From IMG/VR virus record IMGVR_UViG_3300007609_001138, positions 18,994 through 82,993 of that record: 64,000 nt of DNA; one strand, written 5' to 3'. This document shows, piece after piece, positions 1 to 56,829 of the stretch. A model generated the notes under the pieces. The model was not told the DNA's origin, made no database searches, and saw only the letters and a list, made by a program, of their open reading frames with translations. Numbering within the stretch: position 1 is the first letter of the stretch; every line of letters begins with the position of its first letter. This stretch comes from a virus. The position numbers and the translations under genes were made by a program.

Positions 1-2795
1 AATGCAGTGCGCCATTCTGTAATCTCATCACCATACACCGCAGTGCCACTTACAACAGGTACCACTTCGTGCGCTTTTTCCATTGTAAGGTCTAACTCTG
101 TGCCAGTACTACTGAGTAAAAGATCTTTGTTATAAGCAACAGCGGCCATGTGCCCATAGGTCAATCCTGTTGTAGGATTGTGCGCATGGAAAATATAGTG
201 CTTGGGCTGTTGCATTCTGTCAGGTTGCCAGTTCCAGTCAAAGTCTTCGGCTACATTTAGCTTTGCAGGCACTAGAATAAACCAATCAGTGCTTGCTAGC
301 TCTGCGGCTTTTTTAAATGCTTCTAGTCGTCCGTTGATGCCTTCTACTACATGCAACTGTTGATTGTTTGGTAACACCGCACGTAGACGCTGTAAATGCG
401 TCTGTGACACCGTTTCACCGTTGCTTACAAACACTACATCCAGTGCCGATACTGGGTTATTAGCTTGTGTTTTATCTATATAAGCATAGTCATACAACTG
501 TGTTTTCACAACTCCGTGTGCTTCTTTTGGCACAATCACAGTGGTGGCACCACTGTCCAACGGCATAACGGTTTTAGTTTTATCTCTCCACAAGCTAACA
601 GTAGGTATCTTGGTCGGCACAGTACCTACTGTAAACACGGTCAGCGGAGCAGCGGCAGTGTGAGTCTTTACACGATCTACATGACTGTTATCAGAATGCT
701 CCACAACTGGCATTGGCCAGCGAGGCACAGATTGATCTGTTGCGTAGTTTACTGTTTCAAACCAATCCAATATCTCAATGTTTTCTATTCCATGTTTAAA
801 GCTAGGCACATGCAGGAAGAACGTATCACCGAATTTTTGCTCGTTGCTAGGAAACACATGTAGCATGTGCTTTTGCCATGCTTCTGGCTGCCAAGAAAAA
901 TCAAAAGACTGATAATCACACACTGTGCTTGTTACCCAGATATACTCATCTGCCGCACTGTCTACTAGACGTTTAAGTGTGTCAAGATAATTGTCAAAGT
1001 ACCGAGCTTGCTTAACCACGCGATAATTGTTTTGTAAATGATCAAACACTTGATCTCTTTCTGGATTGCCGTGGTCAATCACATAAATGCTATATGCATC
1101 AGCAGGTGCATGCACTGTTTGATTTTCAACAAAATTCAAATTAGGAAACTGTTCGATACTGTCAGCCCAGCGGCAGTGCCTATCAAACTCCCAGCGGTTG
1201 ATCAAAAACGTATCACTCCACTTGTTCCACTGACTGCCAAACACATGTGTCATTGATCTCTGCCAAGGCTCTGGATGCCAGTCAAAGTCAAATTCACTGT
1301 AGTCATTTTCACTGCCGATTACCCAAAAACGCTGTGTTGTGCTTTTCTTGGCACAGCGTTTCACAGTGTCTAGCACAGAGTTAAAATAGCGCACACGTTG
1401 TATACCTGGATACCTTTCTGCTAGTGCATCAAATCTGGCACCAGAACTGGCATTACTGCGATCCATGTAAAAAATATCCAGTGTTTTTATTGTTTTACTT
1501 TCTAGTGTACGCTGAGGAATATCACCTGCAAATTTGATCTCGGTGGCGCCAGGCACGGTGTAGGTTAAATTCACACTGCTTTGATAGTCTGTGCCAAAAT
1601 GATATATGTATGGAGGATCGCCTGGATCAGGTATCCAGCTAAAGTCTACTGCATCTGCATCTACTTCTTCGGGTACTGTCCAGCGCCGCTGATCGGGCTG
1701 TAGTGTTGCAACAGGATCCATTATGAATTTTCTTTCTGTTGCTCCTGGCATATGATATTCAATGGTACTCATTATTTCTGCATTATGCCATTGATTACCA
1801 AACACGTAAATGTAAGGCGGATCACCAGGGTCCGGGCACCAACTACGGTCGAACTCAAACTCGAATCCGTGTTCTGGAACATGCCAATTTGTGTTTGTTT
1901 CTAGCAGTGTTGCACGAGGATAATCAACAAACTTGCGTTCACTGGCACCGGGCATGTGGTATTCCATGGTGGGCATAATTTCTGCATCGTGCCACTGATT
2001 GCCAAACACATAGATGTACGGTGGATCGTCAGGGTCGGGTTCCCAACTAAGGTCAAACCTGCACGGACTATACAGCCATTGCCATAATTCTCCGTTGCTT
2101 GCACAGCGAGTGGCCTTTACTTCGTTTACATATTTGCGTTCAACTGCGCCTGGCACAGTGTAGGTTGCACTTGTTCTTTTTTCAGCAGGCCACCACTGAT
2201 TGCCAAACACATAGATATAAGGTGGATCTGTTGGGTTTGGTCTCCAACGGAACAGTGGATCTTCCAGCAATAAGTTGTCTTGTATTTCAAACAAAGAACT
2301 GTCGTGCTTGGTTGTAACAGTAAAATCGCTTACAAACTTTCTGCCGATTGCATCTGGCATTCTGTATTCTGCGCCGCCTATTCTATCCCAACCCCATTCA
2401 ACTGGAAATTCATAGATATACGGCGGGTCCATTGGATCAGGACTCCACTGTGAATCAATGCTAGCAGGATCAATATAATCCGGAATATACCAAAAAGCTG
2501 GATCACTGTATCTATGAAGAACTGGCAATTCATGCCACGTGGTTTCGGTGTAACCTGCCTTGGGCACTAGATATGTGCCGCCATCCAGCTGATGTTGATT
2601 AGGCCAGGCATGTCGTTGATGTGACTGCCACGGCGCAGGTTCCCAAAGAAAATCCCAGTTACTGTAATCAGATAAGTAATCAACAATCCAACAATATCGA
2701 GTACGAGACATTTCACACGCATGATCTATATCTCTAGCACGAACAGCATGTACACCCTCGGGTGCACGATTTCCTAGGTAAAATATATCAAACAT
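1..2795 (-). CDS. Large repeat protein with degenerate glycosyltransferase-like modules (3' end beyond window)
   Basis: An uninterrupted minus-strand frame of more than 930 codons starts at ATG 2795 and runs off the left edge. The N-terminus (MFDIFYLGNRAPEG) is followed by five repeats of about 65-75 residues built around P(D/N)PxDPPYIYxF and a later PGAxERKF motif. DPPYIY lies near 2420, 2215, 2018, 1815 and 1610. After that come at least two longer modules with the pattern RVRYFNSVLDTVKRC, then WVIGSENDYSEFDFDW, then HVFGSQW. The last visible module (VVEGINGRLEAFKKAAE, then DWFILVP) resembles the GT-A-like protein at 22687-23610, so I infer a string of glycosyltransferase-like folds that lost a DxD motif. 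No signal peptide or membrane segment is visible. The role is unknown; surface-glycan binding or modification is a guess. The start codon overlaps that of the divergent gene. Confidence 0.8.
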   Translation of the reverse strand, partial: MFDIFYLGNRAPEGVHAVRARDIDHACEMSRTRYCWIVDYLSDYSNWDFLWEPAPWQSHQRHAWPNQHQLDGGTYLVPKAGYTETTWHELPVLHRYSDPAFWYIPDYIDPASIDSQWSPDPMDPPYIYEFPVEWGWDRIGGAEYRMPDAIGRKFVSDFTVTTKHDSSLFEIQDNLLLEDPLFRWRPNPTDPPYIYVFGNQWWPAEKRTSATYTVPGAVERKYVNEVKATRCASNGELWQWLYSPCRFDLSWEPDPDDPPYIYVFGNQWHDAEIMPTMEYHMPGASERKFVDYPRATLLETNTNWHVPEHGFEFEFDRSWCPDPGDPPYIYVFGNQWHNAEIMSTIEYHMPGATERKFIMDPVATLQPDQRRWTVPEEVDADAVDFSWIPDPGDPPYIYHFGTDYQSSVNLTYTVPGATEIKFAGDIPQRTLESKTIKTLDIFYMDRSNASSGARFDALAERYPGIQRVRYFNSVLDTVKRCAKKSTTQRFWVIGSENDYSEFDFDWHPEPWQRSMTHVFGSQWNKWSDTFLINRWEFDRHCRWADSIEQFPNLNFVENQTVHAPADAYSIYVIDHGNPERDQVFDHLQNNYRVVKQARYFDNYLDTLKRLVDSAADEYIWVTSTVCDYQSFDFSWQPEAWQKHMLHVFPSNEQKFGDTFFLHVPSFKHGIENIEILDWFETVNYATDQSVPRWPMPVVEHSDNSHVDRVKTHTAAAPLTVFTVGTVPTKIPTVSLWRDKTKTVMPLDSGATTVIVPKEAHGVVKTQLYDYAYIDKTQANNPVSALDVVFVSNGETVSQTHLQRLRAVLPNNQQLHVVEGINGRLEAFKKAAELASTDWFILVPAKLNVAEDFDWNWQPDRMQQPKHYIFHAHNPTTGLTYGHMAAVAYNKDLLLSSTGTELDLTMEKAHEVVPVVSGTAVYGDEITEWRTA

Positions 2796-5303: not shown

Positions 5304-6011
5304 CTAGGTTACAAATGCACGTTCAAGTACAAACGTGCCTGGATTTTTCTTATTGCCTTCAGTGTATCCATTGGATACTAAAAGATTTTTCATGTCTTGG
5401 TTGAATGCCATACTGCCGCATAACATCACTCTATCTGTTTCTGGGTTACTATTAGTCATTATAGCGCCAGATTCAATATGTTTTTGTATACGTCCTGTGT
5501 TAACAAATTCTTCCTGAGTTACTGTCGGGAAATAATCTATGTCAAGATCTTGCAAAAACTCGTGATAACTTAATAATTCAGCAGGTGTTCTCACAGTCCA
5601 GGTTACATGTACTCGTTTGTAAATATTGAAGATTTCTCCGTCTCGTAACAAACTGATAAAAGGTGCAATGCCAGTTCCAGTTGCCATTAGCCAAAGATCG
5701 TGTCCTGGTTGCACAAATTGTGTTGTTAAACTTCCTGTTGGTCGATCGCCTACTTCTATAGTATCACCAGGTTGTACATGTTGTAGTCTACTTGTTAACG
5801 GACCATCGGGTACCTTAATACTGTAAAATTCCAGAAACGGATCTCCTGGTGCACTGGTAATACTGTAAGCTCTCATGAGATCATTATCTCCCATTCCTAT
5901 CATTGTAAACTCACCAGCACGAAAAGTAAAGTCATTTGGCTTTTCTGTTCGGATCCTAAACAGTCGATCTGTGTAGTGTTCTACTTCTGTTATTTTTAAT
6001 ATTTCTGACAT
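5304..6011 (-). CDS. fpr: Ferredoxin-NADP+ reductase (Fpr family), 235 aa
   Basis: FAD site RAYSITS at residues 47-53, GPLTSRL at 70-76, the nucleotide-binding loop [10 protein letters not shown] at 109-118, VMLCGSM near 200 and an aromatic-containing C-terminal tail (FVLERAFVT) all match bacterial Fpr-type reductases. Length is close to the usual 245-260. The enzyme passes electrons between NADPH and ferredoxin through FAD. GAGG sits five bases before the ATG, and the gene overlaps the upstream SGNH-like gene by 16 bases. With the adjacent ferredoxin it forms a complete NADPH-to-ferredoxin module, plausibly dedicated to the radical SAM cluster. Confidence 0.95.
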
Positions 6012-24573: not shown

Positions 24574-25375
24574 AATACGGCTCAAACTGCTTGGCTAATT
24601 CTTTACAGTGATAGTGCCACAATGCACACTGTGTATATCCATTGACTCTTACTTGCCCGCTGTCGATTTCCCAGGTTAGGCTTTTATGCCACTCAGTGGG
24701 TGTGCGAACAATGTCACTTTTCATGTGAACTATCCTGGGTGATAGATTGTGCGGTAAGGTACATTTTTCGATACCACAGATCAGTGTTGCTAGACTGTAT
24801 GCAAGATCAGTGTTAGGCAATTCACCACGTGCATATTTAACAGCAGTCATTGCATCTGACCAATTATCAAAAAGCTTTTTCACTGTTACAAAAAATTTCT
24901 TTGCCATCTCGCTTTGTCGCCAATAGGTAAATGCGTTGTAAGTGTCAGGAAGATTGTTTTTATGTATTACATTTCTATAACGACGGCACTCTACTGATTC
25001 GCCTTTAAAGTCCAGTGCACCTGTGCTTACTACTATATCTCGATGACGCAGCATATCCCAATAATGGTCAATTGGTTGTGCAATCAACATGTCAGCTTCT
25101 AACTTGATGGTTTCATGAAAAGGACTTGCAATATAACATTGCCAATCATTAGCATAGGGATTATCATCTGTGCGCAGATCACCATAGGGCAATGTTTTAA
25201 CTATGTCAAAATCGTTGTCTGCTGGTAGCTGTTTATCTGTTAGTAAACAAACAACGGCATTCTTGTGCCAGTGCTTTAAACTACGACTTAACACACGAGC
25301 ACATGTTGTATAATCCGAGTCCTGCGAATCTATAGCAACAATGAGATATCCTCGATCATGTGCGTATGCTGTCAC
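24566..25375 (-). CDS. Glycosyltransferase-like protein (GTG start), 269 aa
   Basis: The N-terminus RGYLIVAIDSQDSDYTTCAR and CLLTDKQL resemble the nucleotide-binding strands of GT8/GT-A-like folds, and ETIKLEADMLI places an ExD at 93-95 in the usual metal-site position. LPNTDLAYSLATL follows in the acceptor region. There is no in-frame ATG early, and GTG 25375 with AGGGG upstream is the start. It overlaps the adjacent gene by 20 bases. It pairs with the similar protein at 25356-26144. Fold assignment is moderate, substrate unknown. Confidence 0.75.
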   Translation of the reverse strand: MTAYAHDRGYLIVAIDSQDSDYTTCARVLSRSLKHWHKNAVVCLLTDKQLPADNDFDIVKTLPYGDLRTDDNPYANDWQCYIASPFHETIKLEADMLIAQPIDHYWDMLRHRDIVVSTGALDFKGESVECRRYRNVIHKNNLPDTYNAFTYWRQSEMAKKFFVTVKKLFDNWSDAMTAVKYARGELPNTDLAYSLATLICGIEKCTLPHNLSPRIVHMKSDIVRTPTEWHKSLTWEIDSGQVRVNGYTQCALWHYHCKELAKQFEPYYE

Positions 25376-26144
25376 ACTGTGCCCCTAAACTGATTTTGTC
25401 AGATATGTGAATATCATTGTAGACTATAATTCTTTTTTTCTTGTCGTTGAGAGTGTAGGTAACTTCTGTGCTATAGTCTAGCAATTTAAAGTCACAGTGA
25501 TGCGACACTGTGGTCATGCTCCAAGGTATATTAGTAAACTCTGGTATACGACCGCCGTTGACCATTAATAATGCCAGTGTTAGTGCATAGTCGTTTCTAA
25601 AAGGAGATTTATTAAATCTAAACAAATCACTGTAATGGCCATAGTTTTGTTCTATCATCTGCCAGGCGCTGAACACTGACTCTGCAAATCTATTTCTTGT
25701 AAATTGACACACTGTAGCCCATACATGAGGTGTATTGGTTTTGCCGAATGTTTCTTCTTGCATGGTCAAAGGCAGATACTGATTGTTGTGAAAGCACAAA
25801 AACTCATTTTCTGAATCTAGCACTGATTTCAACTCATTACCATTGAGAAAATAATCACAGTCTAGTAACAGTGTATTTTCATAGGGCGATAATGTGTATG
25901 CACTGCTACGAGAACGATTATACCACTGATCTCGATGTTCACTAGCATGCCAGTATCGATCTCCGCCAGAAGACTTTTCAGAATGTATTACAGTATCAAA
26001 CACTGAGTTGTCGACATCAACATCACTGACCAATGTCACAGGAATATCTAGATATTTTTTTACACGTCTAGCACATTCACTGGCTATGCTAACATAATCA
26101 ATGCTGTGATTGTTGAATGCAAAAATTAGTGCGCCGGTACTCAT
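25356..26144 (-). CDS. Glycosyltransferase-like protein with DCD motif, 262 aa
   Basis: GALIFAFNNHSIDYVSIASE at the start, VTLVSDVD, then ENTLLLDCDYFLNG with DCD at 95-97 as candidate metal and nucleotide-sugar site of a GT-A fold. FRNDYALTLALLMVNGG in the second half parallels the corresponding stretch of its downstream neighbour. The gene begins with an ATGA overlap with the first gene of the block. Probably a cytoplasmic glycosyltransferase; specificity unknown. Confidence 0.77.
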   Translation of the reverse strand: MSTGALIFAFNNHSIDYVSIASECARRVKKYLDIPVTLVSDVDVDNSVFDTVIHSEKSSGGDRYWHASEHRDQWYNRSRSSAYTLSPYENTLLLDCDYFLNGNELKSVLDSENEFLCFHNNQYLPLTMQEETFGKTNTPHVWATVCQFTRNRFAESVFSAWQMIEQNYGHYSDLFRFNKSPFRNDYALTLALLMVNGGRIPEFTNIPWSMTTVSHHCDFKLLDYSTEVTYTLNDKKKRIIVYNDIHISDKISLGAQCDSIRT

Positions 26145-26446
26145 CTTTCCTGCTGAATTTTTTCATACTCGGCAAGCCACACATTCATTTGTTCTTGCCA
26201 TCGCTGTTGTGCGGCCAATTCAAGTTCTGTTACATCAATCCTAACAGGATTAGCATGAACATCTAATATCACTGCTGATTCATCAGGACATGCTTGCAGC
26301 ACATTGAGTAATTCTGGACCTGCACACCACATGCCGCCATTGTATGCAAAATGCAACTTAGCAAGCATGCGTTCTTTGAGTACTTGTTTAGCTGTTTCGT
26401 GGTCGAAACGAGATCGAATTTGATTAGAAATATCTGTAGAATTCAT
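26141..26446 (-). CDS. First gene of the accessory block, unknown function, 101 aa
   Basis: Acidic-helical small protein: MNSTDISNQIRSRFDHETAK, then LHFAYNGGMWCAGPELLN, then a long C-terminal helix (AAQQRWQEQMNVWLAEYEKI). No known domain is recognised. Its ATG (26446) lies inside the right-hand part of a perfect dyad, and only seven bases separate the ATG from a TATAAT box, so the message may be leaderless; no ribosome site precedes the ATG. A product at the head of a regulated operon could be autoregulatory, but no helix-turn-helix is evident. Confidence 0.75.
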   Translation of the reverse strand: MNSTDISNQIRSRFDHETAKQVLKERMLAKLHFAYNGGMWCAGPELLNVLQACPDESAVILDVHANPVRIDVTELELAAQQRWQEQMNVWLAEYEKIQQER

Positions 26447-26472
26447 GTAAGTAATTATACATGAATTCTACA
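26435..26472. promoter_or_regulatory. Perfect 15-bp inverted repeat over the -10 box and start codon (operator-like)
   Basis: TGTAGAATTCATGTA at 26435-26449 is exactly repeated in inverse at 26458-26472, with an 8-base centre. The dyad covers the -10 box, the expected transcription start and the initiation codon of the gene at 26141. It looks like an operator for a dimeric or tetrameric repressor; in RNA from the upstream virion genes it would fold into a long AU-rich hairpin that masks the start codon. Confidence 0.65.
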
Positions 26473-26482
26473 CGTTATGCAA
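26454..26482 (-). promoter_or_regulatory. Sigma-70-like promoter at the head of the accessory block
   Basis: On the minus strand, TTGCAT (26482-26477), a 17-base spacer and TATAAT (26459-26454). This is close to consensus and is the only such match in the gap between the virion genes and the accessory block. The expected start of transcription falls at about 26446-26448, the initiation codon of the first gene, so the transcript would be leaderless or nearly so. It probably drives most of the block down to 4955 using host RNA polymerase. Confidence 0.7.
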
Positions 26483-26490
26483 GTTTTAAA

Positions 26491-27456
26491 TTAGCTAGTT
26501 GACCAGCTCGCGCTTTGCATTGATGGAGTGCCCCAAGATGCTGTCAAATAAGTTGTGCTTGGAGGACGAATTACATGTGTACCTGTTAGCGTACCATTTA
26601 CAGTATCATCAAAATCATCGGCTCTATCGTCGTCTAATGTGGTTGTTATTGTGATTGTTGTTGGAGTTGTGTCATTGTTTACTCGTGCTTGTATCTGGAT
26701 ATAGTTCGTAGTATAGGGCGATGTATCGGCAAACTGCTTGAACAATACGGTATTAGAAGTTGTTAAATCATAAGCACCTGTACTGGTTGCAAGTGTATCG
26801 GCAGTTCCGCTGCCACCTATTTTCGTTGTTCCAGTATAGTCAGTGCCAGCAATATTTTTTGTTGATCCTAGACCTGTGAGAGCAATTGTTCCAGTTTTAG
26901 TTAACAAGTCGGTCCACTCGGCATTTTTACTGTGTCCTGATCCGCCAGCTCTGCTGTATGCTAATCGTATCATGCCGCCGGCATTGAAGAAATAACGAAA
27001 CTGGTCAGGAGTGCCGAAGTCAAATGTCTGCTCCAATATTGCAGTGTTCGTCCAACTATTGGTTGTAGATATTGTACCATTTGATGTAATATCACTGCCA
27101 CTAGCAGCAGCGTTTGCACTGCTGTTGAACAGTGTGGTTAAATCTGCTTCAAATGTTGAGATTGCTTCAATGGTGTCGCCAGTGGTTGGATTAGAGATAC
27201 TGGTCACAGTTGTACCAGTGTGATTTGCAATACCTGTGAATGTTCCAAACAAACTGGCCCACTGTGTTGCAGTAATGGTTGTACCTGCACTGACTGCACT
27301 GACATTACCTGTTTGTCCATATCCTTTTGCGCCACTGCCTGTTGCCCAGATAGTGTTTACATTAGGTACACTTATGTTACCAGTGCCGTCTGCACTTCCT
27401 GTAACAAATGTGTTATACTCGTCGTCTAGAATTAAATTGCCAGCACTATATGCCAT
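26491..27456 (-). CDS. Virion/tail-fibre-like protein, 321 aa
   Basis: The sequence is Thr/Ser/Gly/Asn-rich with repeated TGT/ITTT stretches typical of phage fibre or appendage proteins: MAYSAGNLILDDEYNTFVTG at the start, a small conserved region FDFGTPDQFRYFFNAGGMI near the middle, and a beta-rich C-terminus. No enzyme motif. It follows the other fibre-like gene by six bases with AAGGTAA before the ATG, and is the last gene of the late virion block. Probably a tail appendage; exact location unknown. Confidence 0.75.
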   Translation of the reverse strand: MAYSAGNLILDDEYNTFVTGSADGTGNISVPNVNTIWATGSGAKGYGQTGNVSAVSAGTTITATQWASLFGTFTGIANHTGTTVTSISNPTTGDTIEAISTFEADLTTLFNSSANAAASGSDITSNGTISTTNSWTNTAILEQTFDFGTPDQFRYFFNAGGMIRLAYSRAGGSGHSKNAEWTDLLTKTGTIALTGLGSTKNIAGTDYTGTTKIGGSGTADTLATSTGAYDLTTSNTVLFKQFADTSPYTTNYIQIQARVNNDTTPTTITITTTLDDDRADDFDDTVNGTLTGTHVIRPPSTTYLTASWGTPSMQSASWSTS

Positions 27457-27462
27457 AAAAAA

Positions 27463-28836
27463 TTACCTTATCGTTACCACTGCTTCTACGATTTCTACAT
27501 CGTCTGTGTCTTTGCTATTTAGCAAACGACCGATGATCATAAACGGTGTAGCATCTTTATCAGCAACTTCGGAAATTCCGTTGCCGGCACTGACCAGTCT
27601 GTCGCCAGCCTGCGCCTTGCCCTGAACTTTAACACCGACCCGGCCTACCAGTGCTACAGGAGGATGAGTTTCATCGGTACCTGCTCCTGCATTCAGCAGG
27701 TACGCAGGATTTTCACTGATAACGCCAAATGCACGTTCGCTGTTTTTGTTGGCACACAGTGTAATTTCCTGTTCGCCTCCTAGCTCTACCAGTGTACCTG
27801 GTTCATAAACATCATCTGCTGCATAGCGTTCTGCTACGTCAGCGTAAAGCGCACTGGTTGAGGTTGCAAATACTCGATTGAAGTAGCTGCTTGTGCTACC
27901 AATGTTACCAGTTGCATTTGCACCAAGATTGGTAATTCCAAGAACACCAATTGTTCCCGTAGTACCGTCTACTGCGATAGCTGTGGTTTTTTCAGTGGCT
28001 TTGTTTACCTGAATATTAATATTAGCATTGGCTGTTTGGTTGTAAACATTTGCAATGCTAGTACTGGTTTGTACACTTAACTGCAAGTCACTGTCTACAC
28101 CAACACTGAGGCCGCTGTCATTTAAAATACCCAGTGTACCTGTTGTGGTATCGTTGGCAATACTGCTGAGATAGCTGCTGGCATTGGCTCCTCCGAGCTG
28201 TTGACTGTTAGTAGCAGTGCCTTGGAAAAACTGAGATTCACCTCCTACTGTGCTAGCAAGAGTAACACCAGGAAGAACTGAACTAAATCCTGTGATACTT
28301 GGATTCGGAGTAAACTGTGCATCTGGACTGACAATACTTACAACGTCGCCATTTACAATATTTTCAATAACCACGTGTGTGTTGCCAAGTGTGTCTGTGA
28401 TACTGGTTGGAATAGCACCGGTGTTGCCTAATCCACTGGCTGCAACAGGTCCAATTGTTACAAAGCTTGCACCGTCGTATGCTTTAAGCTGGTCGTTTGT
28501 GGTATCCCACCATAGATCACCTTGCTGATTTGTGCTAGGTGTTGTAGTACTAGCTGTGATTGCAGCAAGACGCTGAAATTTTGTTCCTGTGTATACTTTT
28601 AAACTGTTAGGTTGACTGGCACTTCCTGAATCATACCAAAGTTGACCTCTTAGAGGTGAACTTGGCGCAGTACTGTTGCTGCCGCTTTCTAACAGATGTA
28701 TAACGTTTTCGTTAAGGAACTCACCATAACCTGCGTAGTTCTTACCAACCAAGGTCATTGAACTGTCAGTGTTAATGGTACCGTCTGCTACTGTTGCAAA
28801 CGTGGTTCCATTTGTAAGGGTAATAGTATATGCCAT
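27463..28836 (-). CDS. Tail fibre-like structural protein, 457 aa
   Basis: Paired modules GQLWYDSGS and GDLWWDTTNDQLKAYDG are characteristic of T4-like marine phage tail fibre proteins. A long Ser/Thr/Gly/Asn-rich beta region follows, and the C-terminus (YADVAERYAADDVYEPGT, then AFGVISENPAYLLNAG) is a distinct globular tip seen in phage fibres. A GATAAATA late-type promoter lies 24 bases upstream. Probably a receptor-binding or baseplate-attached fibre. Confidence 0.82.
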   Translation of the reverse strand: MAYTITLTNGTTFATVADGTINTDSSMTLVGKNYAGYGEFLNENVIHLLESGSNSTAPSSPLRGQLWYDSGSASQPNSLKVYTGTKFQRLAAITASTTTPSTNQQGDLWWDTTNDQLKAYDGASFVTIGPVAASGLGNTGAIPTSITDTLGNTHVVIENIVNGDVVSIVSPDAQFTPNPSITGFSSVLPGVTLASTVGGESQFFQGTATNSQQLGGANASSYLSSIANDTTTGTLGILNDSGLSVGVDSDLQLSVQTSTSIANVYNQTANANINIQVNKATEKTTAIAVDGTTGTIGVLGITNLGANATGNIGSTSSYFNRVFATSTSALYADVAERYAADDVYEPGTLVELGGEQEITLCANKNSERAFGVISENPAYLLNAGAGTDETHPPVALVGRVGVKVQGKAQAGDRLVSAGNGISEVADKDATPFMIIGRLLNSKDTDDVEIVEAVVTIR

Positions 28837-29546: not shown

Positions 29547-32500
29547 TTATAAACCACGTATAAATCGTGCACCACCTGTGGTTTGAAGTTGTAATGGCAA
29601 ATCACTACCAGGAGCATACAGAGATTGAGACTTTCTAACTCTGATCAGTATGTCTAATCCATCTGCAACAGGCTCATCAAATGTTATAGTTACAGGATCA
29701 AGCAAGTCGACTGTGTAACCTTGCGAGACTGTGATTCCGCCCACATAAACTTCTACTTCGTCTGCGCTTCCGGCACTTACGCCAGTGGCTGTATACTCAA
29801 GTGTGCTAGTGTCTGCGGACAGTGTGGCACTTTGATACTGATCTTGATACTCACTTTGCAGTCTTTGACTAGGTGTAGCGTCATACACAACACTGCCCGC
29901 TGAGTGGTTGAACACACCAGTGCCTGCTGTTCCTCTGCGCAGTCCTGTGACGGTGTTATTTACAAAATCTATTTCTCTGTAGGTTATTCTTTCACCGTTT
30001 ACTAACAGGATTCCAAACTCGCCGTTGGCTGGATCAGCGCCAGGCAGGTTGTTTGCGTTTTCAACATAAATCACAGTAGCATCTGTTGCTAAATCCTGTG
30101 TTAATACTGTTTGTGTTGTTGGCAACACTCTTAATAAACTGCGATTATTTCGCATGTCATCAAACAGTCTAAACTGTATGCTGTCTTGTACTCTGTTGTC
30201 TGTGTACATTGTAACAGCAATAACATCATCTGTGTCAATTGCGGGCACACTGAGTGTCAAGAAACTGGTGTCAATACCTGCGGTAACTGTGAATTCATCG
30301 CCGGGTGTAATATAGCTACCATTTACGGTAACCCAGACTGCATCTGTTTTTACACCAGCTCTGCCTAGGTCAAATTCAAGTGTCGTACTTGCTACCGCTG
30401 CTTGCCCATCGAAACTGGTTGAATCAAACGGAAACTCGTCAAACCGAGCCACTGCCGGGGTTTCAGTTTCTGTAGGTCCAATAAACACCTTGGTAAGCAT
30501 GTTTAATTGTCGACTGTCTTGGTATGTATAAACCGCAATTTCTTGACTGTCTTCTAGATTCACATTATCGTCGATAACCAATAAGTTGCCTGTTAAACTG
30601 TAATCGCTGTCTGTGTTTACATATATCTGAACAACACTGCCTTCAGCTGGAGTAGTTGTTAATACAACAGTTCTTGGTATACTACTGCCGTCGTTCGGAA
30701 GAACCGTAAAATCTACTCCTAGAGTCAACGGAACGTAGTCTACGTAAACTTGAATCTGGTTGTCTGCTATACCGTTACCCGGCGTCTCACTGTTAGGATC
30801 TGTGTCAAAGCTAGTGGTGCTAGCGTCGCCGATATATTCAACACCAGTTGGAGGACGCAGTCTAGTACCGTCGACTTCTACTAGCATGTTTTGATAGGTA
30901 GGTCCTTGACGATTCGCATCTAAATCAAACTGTCGAGAACTACCGTCAATAACGAATCGCTGAGGCGCCATTGAGCTGTATTCATAATACGGCGTTTGAT
31001 TTCCCATCACGGTGATAGCAATATAATCAGTGCTTCCGTACACTTGATCGAACACTATGTCTAGTGTTCCGTTGTCTGCTTCGGTAAGAGCAAAGTCAGT
31101 GATCTCTGCACCGTTGATGAAAATCACAGCATCTTGAACTTGATCAAAGTCCACCGGCATGTTTACAGTGTTGTCAACAATGTTACTCCCAACCACGCTG
31201 GTTCTATCAAGTTGATTGCCACCGCCTAGACCGTATATATCTACAACAACAAAGCTTCCGGAGCCTGCACCTGCAAATAGATCAATGGTGTGATTTATGT
31301 AATCAACTGTATAATAGGTATCTTCATACAGAGTTTGTCCACTTTTAAGGTTACGTACCACAATGTTGTAAGGAACTTCGACACTGTTTGATCCCCAGTC
31401 CAATGTTTGATTGCCACTGGTTATTTCATAAACTCTGTGATCAACTGGCCAGGCGTGTCCTCTGTCAAGATAATCGGCACCCGGAGTTGAACTGACCAGC
31501 ATGCTTAAGGTATCAAACATGCTACCAGGTACCAATTCCTCTGGTGCATGACTGTGATAGGTGTCAATATAATCACCACCGTCTACATTAATATCATCAA
31601 GATTGGTTCCTAGATATGTGTCGCTGTAATTGCTTGAATATGCAACATCAATGTCGTATCCGCTGGTTGGGTCAATCAGCTCCCAGCCAGGCCCGTATAC
31701 TTGTACTCCAGGATATTCAACTCCGTTTATTAATTGACTTAACTGTAACCCAGCATCTTCAAGATCTGGGTCATATAATCCCATGGTTCTGTCTACACCA
31801 CTCAGCGTTGCCGCATCTGTTAGTGTCCAGTCATTTGGTTCGAACGTAGAGCGTCCGCTTGGGCTATTATCAATTGCAGATTCAGTGAAAGTAAACACAC
31901 TTTGTAACAATGTTTCAAAGCTTACTGTATAGTCAACACCTTCTGTTAACACAGTGCCGTTGCGAGTAACAGTGGTAGTGCTGATGTCTCCCAAAGGTAC
32001 ATCAACAACCACTTGATAATTGTTAATACCGCTGCTCTTCAACTCAGTTACTGTAACTACGCCGTCGGTGTCTGCTATTCTTATCAGTATTAGTGCATCT
32101 GCTGTGTAAACTTTGTTGAGATATCTTACTAGCACACCATTGTTGTATGCAACATCTGCTTGCCAACCTATGATACTTGTGGTATATTCGTTACGGTCGA
32201 ATTTCATCACAGTAGACATTGTTCTCACATTGTTAACCTGCATGATCGGTCTTGCTTGAGCACCTGTACCGTTACCGCCCGAGAATGTCACTACGGGTGT
32301 TTCTGTGTATCCGCTGCCTGATGATACTATTTCCACTGAGATTACATTGCCAATGGCGTTAATTCTTGCTCTAGCCACAGCAGGTACGTCAGCATTACCC
32401 GATACTGTGACTTCTGGTTCAACAGTGTATCCGGTTCCGCCTGACACAATCTCGATACTGCTTAATGCAAGCAGATAGGTACCGTACCACTGGTTGTATG

Positions 32501-35500
32501 GAAAACTTTGCCAAACTTCACTGCTATCAGGCAGACTGCTTTCGTATCTCAGCTCATTGTCTAGTATAGGACTTGTGAATTTGTTCTGTGCCTCATTAAA
32601 ATATGCAGGCAAATCAAAATCGGTTATATCTCCGCTGAACTGATCTTCGCCTGCGTAGGTAAGGTTGAAATCTCGTATTTTAGTTCTATAAGGTTTTACT
32701 TCGTTGATGTAGTCTCTTACAAAGTCTTGGTTGTCTGGCTTGTAGATTTGAAAAGGCTGCAACACACGCAGTGAATGGTCAACGTCAATGAGACTAGTCT
32801 TGTACAACCAATCAGGTGCAATTTGCTCACTGAGCACGTACTTGAATGTCAGTGTCACTGCTTCATTGCGACTGGCAACTAGATCGTTTATAAACAGTTC
32901 TTCGTTGATGCTTTCAATGATTCTTCTTGTTTCGACAATAGGTTCTTGGTCGAAGTATTGTGCATCAAATACTTCGCTGTCAAATCCAAATTTGCCGATG
33001 GCGTAGTCAAACACACTGTCGCTGATTTGGATTGTGCCATTTTGCACTCCTACTCGCGTCCAGGCATTATTTTGAGAATAGTTGTACAGTTCCCATTGGC
33101 CTTGACTGTTGTCTTTTACCTTGATCAATGTACCAGGTATTACACGCAAGCTTGACAAATCAGCAACGTTTTCAACTTCTTTGTATGCTACAGTGCTATT
33201 GCTATAGCCAGTGGCATACCAATTCACATAATTCCAAAATTCTGTAGTATCGTATGTTTGTACAGCTTTGAGACTAAGCTCACGGGTACTGGTGCCTTCA
33301 ACTAATGTAATTTCATAAATGGTCCATCTATTTCTGTTATCACTGTCGGTGAGCACAAGGTATCTATAGCCAACGCTTTCGCTGTTGATATCTTGATAGC
33401 CTAGCTCTGTTAGATCAGCAACCTGTTTGTTCCAGCTTTTGTTTGTGTCGGTTTTTTCTGGTATAGGTTCTGCACTGAATAGCTTGTTAAAAGTTTTGCT
33501 TTCCGCTACTGGCACGCTCTGCAACACTCTGTTGGCAAACTGAATATAGTTTTTTAGTGCAACAAGCCGATCCTCAAACATGCTTTGTCTAGGCCTAAAC
33601 TGTATGCCATATTTGTCTGCGTCACGTAAATCTGGGTCAGGCACTCGGTTTCCGTCGGTGTCTGCACCACTATAACTGTCCAAGAACTTTCGGAACAGTC
33701 TATCGTCTATGAATTGATCTGGCTTGTTTTCTTGGAACAGATCATATTCTACATGTACCGGGCTGTCATTTTTTGTTTCGTCGTACTCAACATGTAGCAC
33801 AGTGTCACCGCTGCCGAGATATTGTTCAACATTGTATAGTGCTAGTGCATTATTTCGCAGTGCTGTGATATAACTGATACCACTGCTTCTAGGATCTAAA
33901 ATATACTGAGCTACAGCGTTTGTGCTTAGTGTTTTGTCATGGGATCTAGCAACAGTGTTTAAACCTGTTACCCAGAAATAATACACTGTTTCAAAAGTGC
34001 CACTGTCGTTCAATGTTGCACTGGTACTATAACTGCTTACACTGTATGGCAATCCAGGGCCGCTGTATTGGCTAGGCGGCACACGACTAGATGTCCATTG
34101 ATAGATGTCCACACTGCTGCCTGGGAACACTGTACCAGCAGTTCGGCTGGCATAGATTGGGCTTCCTTGGTCATAGTCAATGAATCTCACATTTTCTGTG
34201 TTCCACCAAATTTCGCCAAGGTGTTCTTGTCTCCATGGCTTGCCTACATTGTGTACACTGCCGGCGGTATAAAAAGCTGGGTCGACACTGCCATTGTAGT
34301 TGATATTTTCTGCGGCAGCGCCAAGTATCTTACCTCTCTGAGGATCAACCCAGTCAAGGTAAATTAATTCTGTTTTTGATCTACGATCGTATAAGAACAC
34401 ACTGTTCAATAGATCTGTTTCAACTGCCGCTTTTTGCTGACGCTCGACAGCCCAAGCCGGCGATCTTGTTGAATTATCAAACACGTATACACTGCCAATG
34501 TCTGCTGTGCTAAAGTCGTCAGTTCCGAGTGCACCTACCATTAACCGTCCGCTGGTTTGATTAACTGCAAATCCAAATTGATCTGCTGGTGCTAAACTGT
34601 TGGTGTATATCAACTGCCCGAACAAGAACTTGCCTGGATTGTCCACGCTGATTTGATAACTGGGCAAATAATCAAATGTAAACACTGCGCCACATCTTGA
34701 TGTATTATCTATAAAGCGTGTTGTCTTGCTGTCAAATGTGGTATCGTCATTGACCCAGGTACTAGGTGCTGTTAAATCATTGTTTGTGGCACTTACTACT
34801 AGACTGTCGGCGTTGGTGTCAATGTCAACTACCTGTCCAAAGTAACCAAAATCAGTTGGTTGTGGTGAATAGATTGTCTGTGTATGAGCCATCGGTGCCA
34901 AGAATAATTCTGCCAATCCAGTGTCTGCAGGATTGCTTAGTCCTGGGCAAATGCGAATCTGATCAAGTTCAGACACAGCAAGCATGTTAATCACCGAGAT
35001 TCTCAGTTTATTGTCAACTGCACTGGCTTGGATGTTACTCAAACCAACTGTGCCATTTATGTCATCAACAACATTGGCTAGGGTACTGCCGGTGAATTCC
35101 ACATTGATGTCGTTGATTCTAACACTGTTCCCTGGAGTAACACTGGTTACTGTTTGAGCACTGGTAATTGCTCCGTATGCTCTTGCTTGATTTACCCAGC
35201 GTTCTACACTGCCAGTGTCAGGACCTTGTGTGCTGTTTTGAGGTGCACCGATATACAAACTACAGTTTGTTGGGCACTGATCAACGGAAAATCCAAAACG
35301 TGCTTGTGCTGTAGCATCATCTGCGGTTACTGTTTGCACTAGGTTAAACTGATTGGTTTCAACGGCAACAACGTCGCCAGTGTCTAGCCCTACTCGAATC
35401 TCTCCACTTAGCGGATCTTGATAAGGAGGTATTGTGCTGGGCACAAAACTTTCACCGTGATTCGTATCACTGTTTGGCATGTAAAAAGTTGTGCCAGGGT

Positions 35501-38500
35501 ATTCAGCAAAAGTCATAGCATGTGCACCTGCGCCCATTGGGCCAGTTCCTTGGTCTGCAGATTCAGCTGCAGATTCCAATAGATACAGTGGATAAAACAG
35601 CCCAGCATCTCCTGCGGTAGGACCGGATGCACTGGTACCATCTACATAAAATGGGCCTTGGTTGATTTCAGATAAAAATCTAACACTGTTGCCACCTACA
35701 ATTTCGTATGTGCCATTGGTATACAGATCTGCATCTCGTTGACGAACGTTATTAAGGTAGACACTGGCAGTGCCGTCTAGAGTGTTTAAAAAGTCTATTG
35801 TACTGGTTGAGTCACTTTGTATCACAGTGTTAAATGCACTGCGATCAAACAGATATACAGTGCCTTCATCTGCATCTGCACCACTACCGCCGGGTGTACC
35901 TATCATAACTTGACGGCCGTCGGTTGTTGTGGTTACACTATGCCCGAATCTAGCTGTGCTGTCTAGTCCTGCAACTGTGATGCCGGATGACATTGGTTCA
36001 TAATAGCTGATTGCGGTATAGGTTATTTCTGCACCGTCGATTGGTGCACTGGTAAACACTACTGTGCCTGCAACTGCCATTGTGTAATCTACGCCGGCTT
36101 GCTGAATTTCTCCGTCAACGTCAATGCGAATGCTGTCGGCTGTTGTAGCTGTAAAAATGTCTCGCTTGTCAGCTCTGCCCTGCAGATCAAAAGACACACT
36201 GCTTCCGTCGCCTTCGTCTGTGGTAACTGTTCTGCGTCGAATAGTAATAGCAGTATCGTCACTGGGTGCAGTGTCAAATGTCAACAGTTGGTTGGCAAGA
36301 TCCACAGTGTAGTCTGTGTAAGCTATAATATTATCGCCTAGTTGAACTTCTATTTCGGTGTCTTGATCAACAACAATAGCATTCTGGAAGCTGTACTCAG
36401 TGGTAGTACCATCACCTGTGTAACTCACTGACTGTGATTCTAGCTCAATCAATTGATATGCATACACTGTGTTTCTACCAGGAGCACCTACATATATCCA
36501 ATTGCTGTTCCGACTCATGGCAACACTGTAGCCAAACTCGTGGTTGTCAGCTGTGTGATTGGGCGGAGTTAACAGTTGATGAGCACTGTACTCAGTTTCG
36601 TTGTCTGCTTTTCTTAAAACCAGTGCTACGCCACCGGCACCGCCTTGATCAGGTGCGCCGCTTACTGCCCATTCGTCTTGTCCAATTTTAGTGCTGAATC
36701 CCAGCTGTGAAAAATTAGCATTGTTTGCATATTCAGCTAGATTTACAATTTCGCTTCGACTGTAGAAACCTTGCTCAGTGAATCCGTAATTCCATACACT
36801 GCCGGTGCTGCTATATCCAGGTGCACCTACCAGGCTGTATATTGTATCCACAGATTGTGCTACACTGTGTCCGTATTGTTGATCAACACTGGGCAAATCA
36901 CTAGCAAGAGTATCATTAAGTCCTGTGTAAGGTTGATTTTTTTGTATTGTTTGCCAACGACCGTTTATGTCATTGTCGACCCAGATTCTATCACCGCTCA
37001 CTAGATTTTGCACAAAGGGCAATTCACTGATGTCGCTGGGCTGTTCAACTCTCACAGTGTCAAATTTTAAAATAACACCAGACCCGGTTATTGTTGATTC
37101 GCTGCCGGGCACACTGCCTTCAACTAAAACTTCTCTAGGTGAGTTGACCTGTTCAATGCGATAAACTGCATTTAGATTTGCTTGAAACAGTTTTAAACAG
37201 AATACATCATTTTTGATTAAGCCATGGTCCTTGTCAAAAGTGATTCGAATACTGCCTCGGAGAGTGTCGTCTATTCTAACTGGAATAGCTGAACTTCGAG
37301 TTGCTCGATACACAGTCCAATCATAGCTGTTCTTTTTTGCTAACCAAATAACTGTACCAGCTGATATTTCTCGAGGATTGATATTTGTCAAGTTATCGTT
37401 ATCAAATACTTGAATATCTATATCTTCGTTGTTTACATATCCAGCTGTAGGGAAGCCTCTCAGTGTAGCAAATGTTGTTGGCAAAATGTTAACATTTGCA
37501 TACTTTTTACTGGTTTTATAGAGATTTCTCAGCAGTACATTTTGGTTGCTTTCAACAGCATCGCCTGGCTGACTGATTGTTATTACACTTGGATTGGTTG
37601 TTAACAAATCAGGATCTAACTGTATTTCAAAGTATCTGCGGTTGTCGCTGGCGCCATACGCTGCTTTTTTTAGTGCCCAGTTTTCGTACACTCTATATTC
37701 TGCTTGTTCTTTTACAAGATCAGCTTGACGGAATGCTTCTGCGGCAGTTGGCGTGCCTTTGTTTTGTATAAATGTACTGTAGACTCCTACCTGTGTTACA
37801 TCATTGAGATTGATATCTGTCATGTAACTTCTGGGTCTAAATCCAATAAGTCCTGTAGCCAGCAAGTCAGCGTCGCGACCTAGGACCACTTGTTTGTTGT
37901 CATAGTATTCGGCTAATTCGCGACCGCGAGTTGCTAGGTTAGGCAGTAAGCCAGTGGCAATTCTACTGTAATCACTTTGTATCCACTTGCTAAATTGGAA
38001 CGTTGCAGATGGTTCGATAACCTGTGCGGCACTCCAGTATTTGTTTTTGAACAATACAATTTCGCCTTTGCTGTACTTGCGATTTTCTTGCCATTCAACA
38101 ATGTTGTCTTCGTTTAAGAAGAAACCAGGCACATCCAATCTGCCGTTCCAGTTTGCACTAACTTGTCCGTTTAGACTAATTCTGCTTTGGCGGTCTCCGG
38201 TTATAGGTTGGTACAACAGATCGTTAAACACAGTGATATTATCAAACACTGCACAATGTTCTGTGTTTGTGAATTCTAAATTCAAGAATCCAATCACTGT
38301 ATCATCGAGCACACGAATTGTAATGGTATTGTCTAATCGATCTATTACAGTGCTGCGATTACTGACTTGCAGTTGATTTACATCAAGCAATGCGTTGGGC
38401 ATTGCAAATACATTGTTTGCTTCTTGCAAATCTCTTGTTATCTTGAGCTGTTTAGCACCAGGATTGATATTGATTGCGGCTGTGGTTTCCCAACCTTGTT

Positions 38501-41500
38501 GCACCCAGCTCAAGAACTCAGTGACCATTTGATCCCAGTTGAGTTCTACACCATTCACAGTGTTGTCAAATACAAATCCTGCCAGTTCTAGTCTGCGTCC
38601 GTAGCTGTACAAAAAGTCTGCTACACCTGCTACACTTTTAAACTCGTATCCATAAGGAACCAAACTGATATTGTTTGTATAGGTTTGGTTCAATCGTACT
38701 GTTGTGTCGCCAACAGAAACAGTTTTATAGTTGCCGTCTACTCTGCTGACCAATATTTCAAAATTTGGCTCAGTGATAGCATTGCCGAATACTGCGTAAC
38801 CAGAATCAGTTCTCTGAATAATAACACTGCTGTATTTGACAGTGTCTATTGGCTGATTTTTGTGCAACAACACAGCATAGCTTTCGTCTGGCACCAGGAA
38901 ACTACTGTTGGTGCTGTTAGGACTGGTTTTTTCTAGCAAGAAGTTAACATAGGTTTTGTCTGTAAAGGACGCTAGACGATAACTCAATCGAACATCAAAA
39001 TTGTTAACTAAATTTTCAATCAGCTGTTGGCTGTTGATTCCTCTTTGTTTGTTGTAGTCAACAACCCAGTTGAGGTAGCTGTGTTTTGCAACACCGCTTC
39101 CATAAACCACAATATTGCTAACATTAAATCTTCCTCTATTGTTAACTAGATACTGATTAAATTCAGTGTTAAACTGATATAGATCTCTATCTATGTTTAA
39201 CCCATAAAACTGACTTGGACGGAATGCAGCAAACAATCTTGTTAGTGCAAAAGGATATGCACTGCTGCGTCTCCAAGCAGTTTCAACTGGGCCTTGGTCC
39301 CCAACCACATAAGGTCTGTTAAAACTGTTGAAATCATAATTTTGAATCAACACTGTTAACGGATCTAATAGATTGCCTTCACCGTCGACTGGAATTACAT
39401 CCAACAGGTCTGGGCGAATGTATCTAGCGTCAACTCTTGGATTGCCGGGCTCGTCAATTAATCCTTGTGCTAGATCTTTCCACAGTACCAAGTTACCGCT
39501 GGTATAAGGAGGCGCACCGTATTGATCTTGCCACCAACTTGGCTGTACAGTAATACCCAGCATTTCCCATGGTGTTAGATGTGGAGTGTCAGTGTCATAG
39601 TAATAATTAAAAATACCTCTCCAGTTTCCTACCTGTAGCTCATTGTCCAGTTTTCCTGTACTTTGACTGTAGTTGTAGGTAAATCCGTTTGCAGCATCAT
39701 AGTTTTGTGTTTTCACATCTAATCTATTATAACTGGTCCAACTTAACAGTATAGGACTTAAAAATTGATTAACTTCCTGCAAGCTGTATCCTGTGTCTCT
39801 AAATTGACCAGGAACAACATCTGCCTCGGTTAACGGAATAGCACCAGATGTTTTTAAATTGTTATAGATTCTTTTCTCAAGTTCAAGTATCAACAGATCT
39901 CTATCATCACCATAGGCTGTTGTTATACTGCCATCGTGCCCTCGAATTACCAGTTGTTCTTCTACATAACTGTTGTCATAGAACATGCGAGGTTGCCAAC
40001 TTGGATACATGCCAAGCTTGGTAGGCGTCGATGGCATGTAACTACCGTAAGTTTGATCGTATTCATTGATAATCAACTGATCGCCAACTGCTAAACTGGC
40101 AGTGATTGTCACACGAGGCTCGTTGTTAACAATCACATAATCTCTACCGTTAATTAGCTGTGTGCCATTGAGATATATTAACACACCATTATAATTGGCA
40201 TTAGCAAAATCATAGCCCCGAGTCAGGTCAAATATTGGTGTTGTAATCTGACTCACTGTCACGGCGGTGGTAGTCACAGGACCGTTTGGAATCATGTCAG
40301 TCCAGAAAAACGGAGAATTTTCGGTTTTACCTACTGCAATTGTTTCCAACACTGCATCAAGTATTTCAGGCACAGTTTCAGTTGGAAACTCGTTCCGGGT
40401 ATAGGTATCTACAACCAGTGTTTTAAATTTTTCATATTCACTGGCACTGTACGCCACTGCTGTTTGTAGATCAAGTTCTTTGTCTCTGCTGAAAATACCC
40501 TGAAACGGCACCGGTGCACTGTGTTGCAACAATTTGTCACCAAAAGGTATTACATTGCCAAGGTCTCGAATGTTGTTTCTGCCATTGACATTGCCTTCGA
40601 GATTTTGTAAATTGCGGCCGATGCTGTTAAAGTGTTTGCGTATTGTACCCAGTGTTAATTCTGCACTGTTTTCGTTTAACGGATTAAATTCCAAGTTCGC
40701 CGGCACACTGTACTGACCAATTTCACTGGTCTGTGAGCTGATAATTTCCACTGTTATACTGCTACCAGATTCTGGTTCGGTGTTAAACACAAAGGCTGTT
40801 GAGTTTGTATCAGTGGTATAAGAATATTGTGAAGGATCCACATACTCATTGTTAACAATAACCTTAACCGGAGTTACACTAGCTGTTTGATTGGGCACAA
40901 CGTCAATTGTGAACTGTTGTCCTTGTGTGTAAGTCTGTGTTATAATCTGAGTTGTGTTGAGATCACTGACCATTGTCTGCCAGCCGATTAATCTTGAGTA
41001 ATCTGTTCTGTCACTGTATTGGTGAACATATCCGTTGGCAACTGGTGTTACAATACTTTCTCTATCAACAACATTAACAAACGATTCTGTGTAGTAACTG
41101 TTTTCAAACACAATGTCGCCGACATTGTTGATGTTGAGATATTTTAGTGCAAACCCTAGGTTTGGATCTTCGGCACCTGTGCCCGTGCCATATGAAAAAA
41201 GTTTATTGCCAACGAACGTGGTGCTAGGATAAATTTCGGTGTCGCTAAAACTAACTCCGTTTTGATCAAACACATCAAACAAAGGGGCTTGATTTGTACT
41301 GGTCTTTTGCTGCGTAGAAACCCAATTGCTACCGTCAAATCTATAACTGAGTCCTTGGTTTTCTACTCCATTTAATTGAACTACACATTGATCAACAGAC
41401 ACATCACTGTCTGATGCAGGCACAAGATTTATAATTTCTAATCTTGTTAAGCGTATTAAGCTGCCGTCATCTGGCGCAGTGGTAAAGGTAATTGTTTGTG

Positions 41501-43652: not shown

Positions 43653-46600
43653 TAGTAACTGCTGCCTCCGCCGTTTGATGATCCACCTGTTGGTGCTGTT
43701 GTACCTGTACTGCTAACATTAAACCCACTTACTGACGTAACACTAGCCGAGCCTCCGTTTTCTGAACTGGTGCTTTGTCCGGTTCTCAGTGTAGCACTGT
43801 TTAAACTTGCTACCACTTCTATGTCGCTGATCTGCGCAGCATTTACAAAAATTTCATTTGGCTGAGCTTTTAACTCGTAAAGATCTCCAAATACCAGCGT
43901 ACTGTCATTGGGTACCAGCACAACACTGCTGACAATGTCACCAAGTTGCTGCTGTAAATAACCTGCTAGTTCACTGAAGTAAAAGGTTTGTCCAAAATCC
44001 CATTTGTCAATATCAAAGTAAGCGTCCATTTCGCTTAGTACTCGACTTTTTATTTCGCTACTGCTTATCACAGCGTCAACCAGTGGAACTACTTTTATTG
44101 TGGCTTGCAGTTCTCTTGCTGCCTTTTCACCAAACAATGGTTTAAATGTAACACTGTTGATTACAATATTATCACTGAGCATCTTGTAGTCTTGCAACCC
44201 GCTGTATTCTGCGGTTAACGTGTCAATGTTTGGTTGCTCAGGTTGTGCTACTGTACCGGTAGTGTCCACAATGTAGTTTCTGTATGCTTGATAGTAACTG
44301 GCAGTAACCACATACAAATCAATGGTATTGCTAAACGCAGGATCAATTCTACGTGTGTTAGGACTGTTGTGTCTATACTGGAAATACAATCCGCCGCGGC
44401 CGGTTTTCTTGCTGTATTCGCCATCTGTGTCCAGCACCAGTGTTCTATTGTTGTCAACATCAACATCCAGTGTATAAAACCGATCGTCGGTGTATGCATA
44501 AAACACTTGACCTTCCACAAAGCGATTCTTGACCAGTTCTATGTCGTCCAGTGTAGCATAGGCTGCATTTACCGTGCTCTCTGCTAGCGGAAGATCTCTC
44601 ACTAGATTGTCAAAGTCTTGAACTTCTTGGAAAAACACTGTTCGCAGTGCAATATCACTTTGATCAGGATCAACCACTTCGTCAAAGAAGTCTGGGTTGT
44701 CAGCAAATCCATCACTGTTATTGTCTGTATAACTCACAGTAACCACAAAGTCGTTTACAAATCCATCGCTGGTTACAGGTTGATCAACGATATCAACTTC
44801 AACATCGTTGTTCAACGGAGTGCTGGAAGTTGGTTGATTGTTGATTTTTAGAATCTTAACAAAATCATCTATCACTGTGCCTGTTTTGCTGTCGTATATT
44901 CTGCGATCGCCGTCAAAGTAAAAACGTGTTTCGATAACACTTGCAAAATAATAGTTCAAACTTCTTGAACGTACACTGTAAATTTCACCGTCGGTGGTAA
45001 ATTTCACAAGCCAGCTTGCATCTTGATTTGTGCCAGCTTGACTTTGAGCATTTGTTAAACTGAATGTGTTACTATCGCTGAGGTTGGTGCTGGTTATGAG
45101 ATACCATTCTGCATTGAGATAATCATAGCCTATGCCAAAGTTTCGGTTTAACTGCACCTGCTCAATGATAGAGTTTTCTAAACTGGTAGGCAAGTCACTA
45201 ACAAACAGTGGTATCACTCTACTGGCTACGGCACCAGTGGGGATAAATCGAGAAATTGTTACAGGACCAGTGCCGTCATCTAGATTTCCTTGATTAAAGT
45301 TTGTACCGTCAAGCACAACATTTGTTATGGTTGCCCAAATATAATTTTTCTCATCTGGTTGTGACGCAGTGCCATTTGTTAAATTGTTGTTGCGATCAAA
45401 ATACTGTCCACTGGGCGCATCAAATCGCACCAAGCTTCCTACAGTAACATATCGCTGATTGTTATTGGCATACTGCCCAATAGGCTGATATCTCTGGCCA
45501 GTGGTTGTGTTGAGATTGGTCCAATAACCTGTGTTGGTTATTGCAATTCCAGGCGGCACTGTGGTTTTACTTTGATAATATCCTTGATTGATGCCGCTGC
45601 TTACTACAACAGTGACACCTGTGTTCCAACTCTGAGTGTTGTTCCAGGCTTCTGCTTCTGTGATTCTACTGTAGAAATATCCAGTGGTCTCGTTTGTGAG
45701 AGTGGTTGAATAGTTCCATTGTACATTTAATCCGCCGGCAGCTTCAAGCTCTAATCTAGGAAAATTGTCTTTGTCATAGTAAAACTGTTGCATTGCTCGA
45801 CTGCGCAGCTTAGGTTCAACTCTGTTTACCACAATGTCGGTAATGTCGTTAACATCATCGTAGATAAACGTAAATGTGTCTAGCACATTTTCTCTATAGA
45901 TCAACCCATCACTGGCATATAGATTTGTACTACTGTACTTGCCGGTTGGATCTGTGAGGTCAAGATAACGACTGATTCCTAAACTGGATCTGTTAACAGC
46001 CTTGCTTTTGATAATTGAACTGTACAGAGTATACGGAAAGTTATTGTAATCTTCGCCGTTAACCATACGATTCTGTGTGTAAAATCTTGCAGGCGCTCTT
46101 TGTTTGATTTCGTTCAGTGTTTCTCTTTGCAGTGCATTGCTAACAGTGTCAGTGAGACTCACTGTAAAGGTTACAGTTTCAGTGCGACCTGTTCTGCTTA
46201 CATACTGAATTGGAATCTGCACTGTCTGTATGTCGTCTGGAGAAATTGAATATGTGAGGCCATTGCTGAGTCTAACATAGCTGCGAAACACTCCAACTGG
46301 AATATCGCTGAACACACCATCGCCAAAATTTAAGTTTACGCCATCATTGGCTCGACTGGTTACACTGTAAATTCTTCTTTGCAGAGCCGCAGTTTCGTTG
46401 TTGACATTTTCCTGATAGATGTTTTCAACTTCGTTCCACTCGTTTTCAATGTTGCCATTGCTGTCCAATTGATACAACCATATGTCGTCGTTGTTTACAC
46501 CTTCGACACCGAGATTGACCACTCTGTTGCTAACACGTTCTGCTAGATTAAAGTCTTGATTTTGTAAACTGCCTTGTTTAAAATACAGGAACCAACCTGT

Positions 46601-47353: not shown

Positions 47354-47370
47354 AGTGCGTCCTGTTCTAA

Positions 47371-47377
47371 TATTTAG
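47371..47377 (-). promoter_or_regulatory. Late-promoter-like motif (CTAAATA)
   Basis: Minus strand GCTAAATATTAGAACAGGAC upstream of the gp6-like ATG (47353). Expected transcription start about 12 bases before the ATG, with AGGAC as ribosome site. Confidence 0.62.
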
Positions 47378-47398
47378 CGTGTGAAAAAACGGCGTATT

Positions 47399-47773: not shown

Positions 47774-47777
47774 AATG

Positions 47778-47784
47778 TATTTAG
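47778..47784 (-). promoter_or_regulatory. Late-promoter-like motif (CTAAATA) very close to an ATG
   Basis: Minus strand CACTAAATACATTATG: the motif ends four bases before the gp25 initiation codon, so a T4-like start would leave no leader. It may be unused or give leaderless RNA. Confidence 0.45.
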
Positions 47785-47787
47785 TGG

Positions 47788-56776: not shown

Positions 56777-56804
56777 TTGACTAGCACACAAAACAATGTA
56801 TAAT
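56777..56804 (+). promoter_or_regulatory. Sigma-70-like promoter for the gp55-like gene
   Basis: TTGACT (56777-56782), a 16-base spacer and TATAAT (56799-56804), close to consensus. A 25-base leader with AGGAGA leads to the TTG start at 56830. Transcription by host polymerase would make the late sigma factor early or in mid-infection. Confidence 0.75.
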
Positions 56805-56829
56805 TAATGTAACCTATAGGAGAATATCT

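Follow-up and report, generated by a model that had tools for sequence, protein, structure and literature searches.

What does a perfect inverted repeat do when it lies across both the promoter and the start codon of a phage gene? The question is raised by a 64-kb stretch of DNA, hereafter the window, taken from the 82,993-bp IMG/VR record IMGVR_UViG_3300007609_001138. At the head of a gene block on its minus strand, directly after the last virion-type gene, two 15-nt arms face each other across the site where transcription and translation of the block are predicted to begin. A preliminary description of this DNA had read the repeat as the operator of a repressor-controlled switch. The analysis below points tentatively to a different role, exerted in RNA. 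The features concerned are the following.

26491–27456 (−): upstream virion-type gene, possible source of read-through RNA; the 101-aa gene starts 44 nt after it
26477–26482 (−): −35 box TTGCAT, matching TTGACA at three of six positions; 17-nt spacer as in most relatives
26454–26459 (−): −10 box TATAAT, kept in relatives
26435–26472 (−): 15-bp perfect dyad with 8-nt loop, over −10 box, start site and start codon
26444–26446 (−): start codon ATG, also the predicted transcription start of a leaderless message; 7 nt past the −10 box
26141–26446 (−): 101-aa gene, first of the block; structure model with mean pLDDT 84.6
25356–26144 (−): second operon gene; shares 4 nt with the 101-aa gene, has no Pfam match and keeps its place in relatives
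56830–57723 (+): late sigma factor gene of T4 type (PHROG 12791, E 7.9e-78)

An exceptional dyad and the case for an operator

The dyad has the form TGTAGAATTCATGTA-8-TACATGAATTCTACA, and its arms (26435–26449 and 26458–26472) are complementary at 15 of 15 positions across an 8-nt gap, exactly as first described. No other inverted repeat in the window is as long when loops of up to 30 nt are allowed, the runner-up having 11-bp arms, and the maximum in 20 dinucleotide-Markov sequences of window length was 13. The earlier observation is upheld. The statement that the repeat covers the −10 box, start site and initiation codon is right as regards overlap, although the loop, and not an arm, contains four of the six −10 bases.

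A symmetric site over a promoter, as a repressor operator requires, is therefore present, and a lineage-private operator, at which a phage or host repressor binds the dyad and blocks RNA polymerase, has to be weighed. Long perfect symmetry over the −10 box and start site favours it, and there is a precedent in T4, where the regulator I-TevI binds over its own promoter (PMC2988022). The window dyad resembles that autorepression site in overlapping a −10 box and start site; unlike it, the dyad is not conserved, has no second site and comes without a known regulator. A search of the whole record for a second dyad found none. One arm does recur with 13 of 15 matches as TGTATAATTAATGTA at 56797–56811, on the −10 box of the late sigma factor gene, but this extra half-site is near chance expectation (0.35 arm-like sites with at most two mismatches) and shares the TATAAT. 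Furthermore, the repressor is a postulated one in an incomplete record, and the coding arm is also under constraint from the protein that it encodes. With the dyad also missing from the 121 other upstream regions described below, such an operator appears rather unlikely. The late sigma factor gene itself (56797–57723 region, plus strand) stands behind TTGACT-16-TATAAT.

A conserved promoter and a predicted leaderless message

The minus-strand layout at the head of the block is TTGCAT-17-TATAAT-7-ATG. The promoter had been called near-consensus, which fits the −10 box, the −35 box agreeing with TTGACA at only half of its positions. The 101-aa gene has no Shine-Dalgarno motif. From this absence and the 7-nt gap between −10 box and ATG, transcription is predicted to begin on the start codon itself. 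The predicted start of the block message, from which the actual start site is deduced, is the A of the initiation codon. A leaderless start was not part of the preliminary description and is added by the present analysis.

A collection of the 101-aa protein's relatives in viral contigs yielded 122 distinct upstream regions, among which the window's own is counted through a second record, L002. A −10 box matching TATAAT at five or more of six positions lies just 5′ of the gene in 119 of them, and in 108 of 122 (88.5%, vs 5.7% in shuffled leaders) a TATAAT-like box stands 5–7 nt from the ATG. The spacer between −35 and −10 boxes is 17 nt in 106 of the 122, and a Shine-Dalgarno motif was found upstream of none of them (0/122). 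The promoter proposed for the head of the block is thus strongly supported, nearly all relatives having it in this position. Among the upstream virion genes of the same loci, used as a control, the promoter-at-ATG arrangement occurs in 0/97 and a Shine-Dalgarno motif in 66/97; among relatives of the window's SbcC-like gene, a second control, the spacing is found in 8/59. The fixed −10 spacing and the lack of a Shine-Dalgarno motif make it very probable that the message of this operon is leaderless, and the difference from both controls marks the predicted leaderless start as a specific, old feature of the operon.

Leaderless starts as a general habit of these phages were considered and set aside, as the SbcC-like gene (gp46-type; 61136–62899, plus strand) looks leaderless in the window, with TTGAAA-17-TATACT-6-ATG, but not in its relatives. 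An SbcD-like gene (gp47-type) lies at 57727–58740 (+). Across the whole record, TGTATAAT-5..8-ATG was counted 39 times vs 13 in a reversed control, which suggests a few further starts of this kind per phage.

The message of lambda cI from PRM is leaderless, with its −10 box next to the ORF. To our knowledge, leaderless phage messages are mostly known as single cases. Leaderless messages of Deinococcus-Thermus genes show the same closeness of −10 box and ORF (PMC12340547). The window resembles both in having its −10 box a few nucleotides before the AUG and no Shine-Dalgarno motif; it differs in that the arrangement belongs to one phage operon, is predicted for 108 of the 122 divergent relatives and, in most of them, is fused to an upstream terminator. 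Such a start is predicted here at one operon in more than 100 divergent phage sequences, for which we could find no counterpart in cultured phages.

A terminator fused to the promoter in relatives

Just ahead of the promoter, 108 of the 122 upstream regions have a predicted intrinsic terminator, usually AAAAGGGCC-loop-GGCCCTTTACTTTT, whose 3′ arm and T-run reach into the −35 box. By its sequence, this terminator sets the block apart from the upstream virion genes. The conserved module in which a predicted terminator and leaderless promoter are fused goes beyond what had been claimed for this locus, and is the most solid new fact to emerge here. The window's upstream region, like 13 others of the 122, fails the terminator test (a G+C-rich stem followed by a T-run).

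Start-spanning dyads of at least 10 bp occur only in the window (15 bp) and in one relative, L013 (10 bp), and both belong to the 14 regions without a terminator. The chance of this coincidence is about 0.012 and rank tests gave p values of 0.02–0.05, but since the tests are post hoc and the sequences related, the association is only a hint. Most other relatives that lack the terminator also lack a dyad, which speaks against an exchange of one for the other. The dyad of L013, a palindrome of 21 bp (AGTATTCATACTATGAATACT, 5989–6009), is unlike that of the window but also lies on the start codon of the 101-aa gene; this relative has neither a terminator nor a clear TATAAT.

A dyad private to one phage

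The preliminary description had proposed looking for conserved dyads in related phages. The analysis began with this test, and the outcome was negative. None of the 121 other upstream regions has the dyad, and a search of all IMG/VR viral contigs with the exact 34-mer and with the degenerate pattern GAATTCATGTAN{2,14}TACATGAATTC returned the same phage only. L002 had been a candidate for an independent relative with the dyad, but it is identical to the window over 12.3 kb and another 8 kb, and identity over the tested shared DNA identifies it as the same phage in a second assembly. The window's 42000–50000 segment is not in the L002 record; as that record is a fragment, its absence is uninformative. 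A conserved operator is not supported by these comparisons, and the repressor-operator switch as first put forward is left with the position of the dyad in its favour. It had been held that the switch would fall if the dyad proved unconserved and transcription started elsewhere; the dyad is indeed unconserved, but the conserved promoter predicts a start exactly here.

The coding arm of the dyad looks derived. Its codons 3–4, TCT ACA, are found in the window only (114 relatives compared); at residue 4, 111 of the 114 have Asp, Glu or Asn. The family's −10 region, AATTCCTGTATAATTA, and the gene start ATGAAT already supply part of both arms, so that either a template switch or selection could perfect an imperfect dyad. 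Masking of the start codon as a family trait was rejected: the accessibility of the start in the relatives' read-through RNAs had a mean rank of 0.52 among shuffles, with 6 cases of low accessibility vs 6.1 expected from shuffled leaders.

These observations bear on a further explanation, in which the dyad is neutral or nearly so, a recent template switch having perfected an imperfect repeat while function resides in the leaderless promoter alone. Restriction to one phage, the partial arms furnished by the family sequence, the unique codons 3–4 (which copying of the coding arm from its partner would produce) and the absence of family-wide start masking are all in keeping with it, and mutations of this type are known in E. 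coli (PMC7202029). It accounts less well for the position of the dyad, which coincides precisely with promoter and start codon in a phage also lacking the usual terminator, and a strong effect on any read-through RNA is to be expected whether or not it was selected. A neutral origin is accordingly a serious possibility, if hardly a probable one.

Two probable promoter classes

A late sigma factor is encoded by this phage and in eight of nine records searched, the ninth being the fragmentary second assembly of this phage. CTAAATA stands 11–25 nt before four virion genes (29541, 47377, 47784 and 56751, minus strand) and is likely a late promoter motif of T4 type, although matches across the whole window are not above chance in number. 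Before the relatives' virion genes TAAATA is the commonest hexamer (34/97), as opposed to 2/126 before block genes, a contrast to be read with care because the leaders of most block genes are coding sequence, each such gene beginning within the one before it. Virion genes thus seem to use a promoter class separate from that of the block. The block promoter is sigma-70-like, with a −35 box at fixed spacing, from which we infer that the block is expressed early or middle in infection.

Predicted RNA folding and a proposed translational insulator

The two RNAs that could carry the 101-aa gene are predicted to fold differently. In read-through RNA the AUG is unpaired with a probability of about 0.001, vs a mean of 0.56 in the leaderless RNA (A 0.99, U 0.64, G 0.06), which agrees with the earlier suggestion that the repeat masks the start codon when transcription continues out of the virion genes. 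RNA from the block's own promoter lacks the 5′ arm, so the hairpin cannot form in the leaderless message; weak local pairing of the G of the AUG is nevertheless predicted there and counts against an insulating role.

The hairpin alone is predicted at −19.4 kcal/mol. This stability and its place directly after the last virion-type gene, the spot of the relatives' terminator, might instead indicate an RNase processing site, an element for transcript 3′ ends or stability, or a weak terminator of the virion transcript. The stem is A+U-rich, however, and no T-run follows, so it fails the pattern of an intrinsic terminator, and an Rfam search gave no family, only a single chance-level microRNA match. 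Roles of this kind are therefore improbable.

The reading that we prefer among these, while rating it somewhat less likely than not, is that the dyad acts in RNA as a translational insulator in the terminator's stead. A sigma-70-type promoter would head the conserved operon and direct transcription from the A of the initiation codon, giving a leaderless message. In RNA running on from the virion genes the dyad would fold and bury the AUG; in RNA from the block's own promoter the 5′ arm would be missing and the AUG would lie at the 5′ end. Late read-through would thereby be blocked and only the block's own early RNA translated, which is the terminator's job in relatives, and expression of the block would be tied to its own early or middle promoter. 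Folding in the cell, the block to translation and the timing of expression are all steps that we infer, the timing from promoter motifs.

A comparable design is known from T4 genes e, soc, 49 and I-TevI and from mobE of Aeh1, where the hairpin burying the translation start has a promoter inside its 5′ part (PMC3014915, PMC2988022). Transcripts from that internal promoter are free of the 5′ arm and therefore translatable; in T4, early read-through RNA is blocked in this way and late RNA is translated (PMC3014915, PMC2988022). The window is alike in that its long RNA is predicted to bury the AUG and its internal promoter, by position, gives RNA without the 5′ arm. It is unlike the gene e type of switch in that the short message has neither leader nor Shine-Dalgarno motif, the internal promoter is sigma-70-like with a −35 box and not late, and read-through would come from late virion genes, reversing the timing. 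Furthermore, the window hairpin is not kept in relatives and is known here from sequence.

On a wider view, which we advance with somewhat more reserve, a clade of large, uncultured phages shields a leaderless early operon from late read-through, as a rule by means of a terminator built into the promoter, and one lineage has swapped this terminator for a hairpin that hides the AUG, a time-reversed gene e switch without a Shine-Dalgarno motif. If the dyad works as proposed, translational insulation has taken the place of transcriptional insulation at this site in one phage; the 56-bp segment (26435–26490, minus strand) would then be a simple construct for asking whether upstream RNA alone can switch off a leaderless start.

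The operon, its first product and the phage

The genes behind the promoter had been described as an accessory block; the order of the first ones is instead conserved in relatives and they form no loose set. The 101-aa gene is followed by genes of ~265 and ~260 aa, one of ~115 aa and one of 308 aa, with a radical SAM gene next in many relatives, and the ends of block genes mostly overlap. Most block proteins have no Pfam match; a sugar-transferase-like character is our own reading and not a database result. In the long block at 5000–26400 (−) of the window, several genes are of the radical SAM type and many have no Pfam match.

Cultured phages gave no match for the 101-aa protein or for two block proteins tested, and bacterial genomes gave no relative. 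The 101-aa protein has no match in the PDB, by sequence or by fold, and none in Pfam or PHROG, the DUF4376 profile being unmatched in all 25 members. A BFVD fold search with its model returned weak matches to DUF4376 proteins (E 0.045 and weaker), a likeness that is a lead only. This domain occurs in tail-fibre chaperones such as gp27 of Alteromonas phage V22 and gp9 of Alteromonas phage A5 (PMC7289586, PMC10579305). The 101-aa product shares with these its small size and a gene just after tail-type genes, and may be weakly similar in fold; unlike them, it is about half their length and matches no Pfam or PHROG family.

Upstream, the gene at 27463–28836 (−) encodes a protein with a C-terminal Peptidase_G2 match (autoproteolytic intramolecular chaperone domain), and a 4701-aa open frame occupies 29547–43652 (−) in the virion gene region. 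Judged from its baseplate hub (27–35% identity), the phage is distant kin of PA5oct, 121Q and Atu_ph07, and the records of relatives reach 353 kb.
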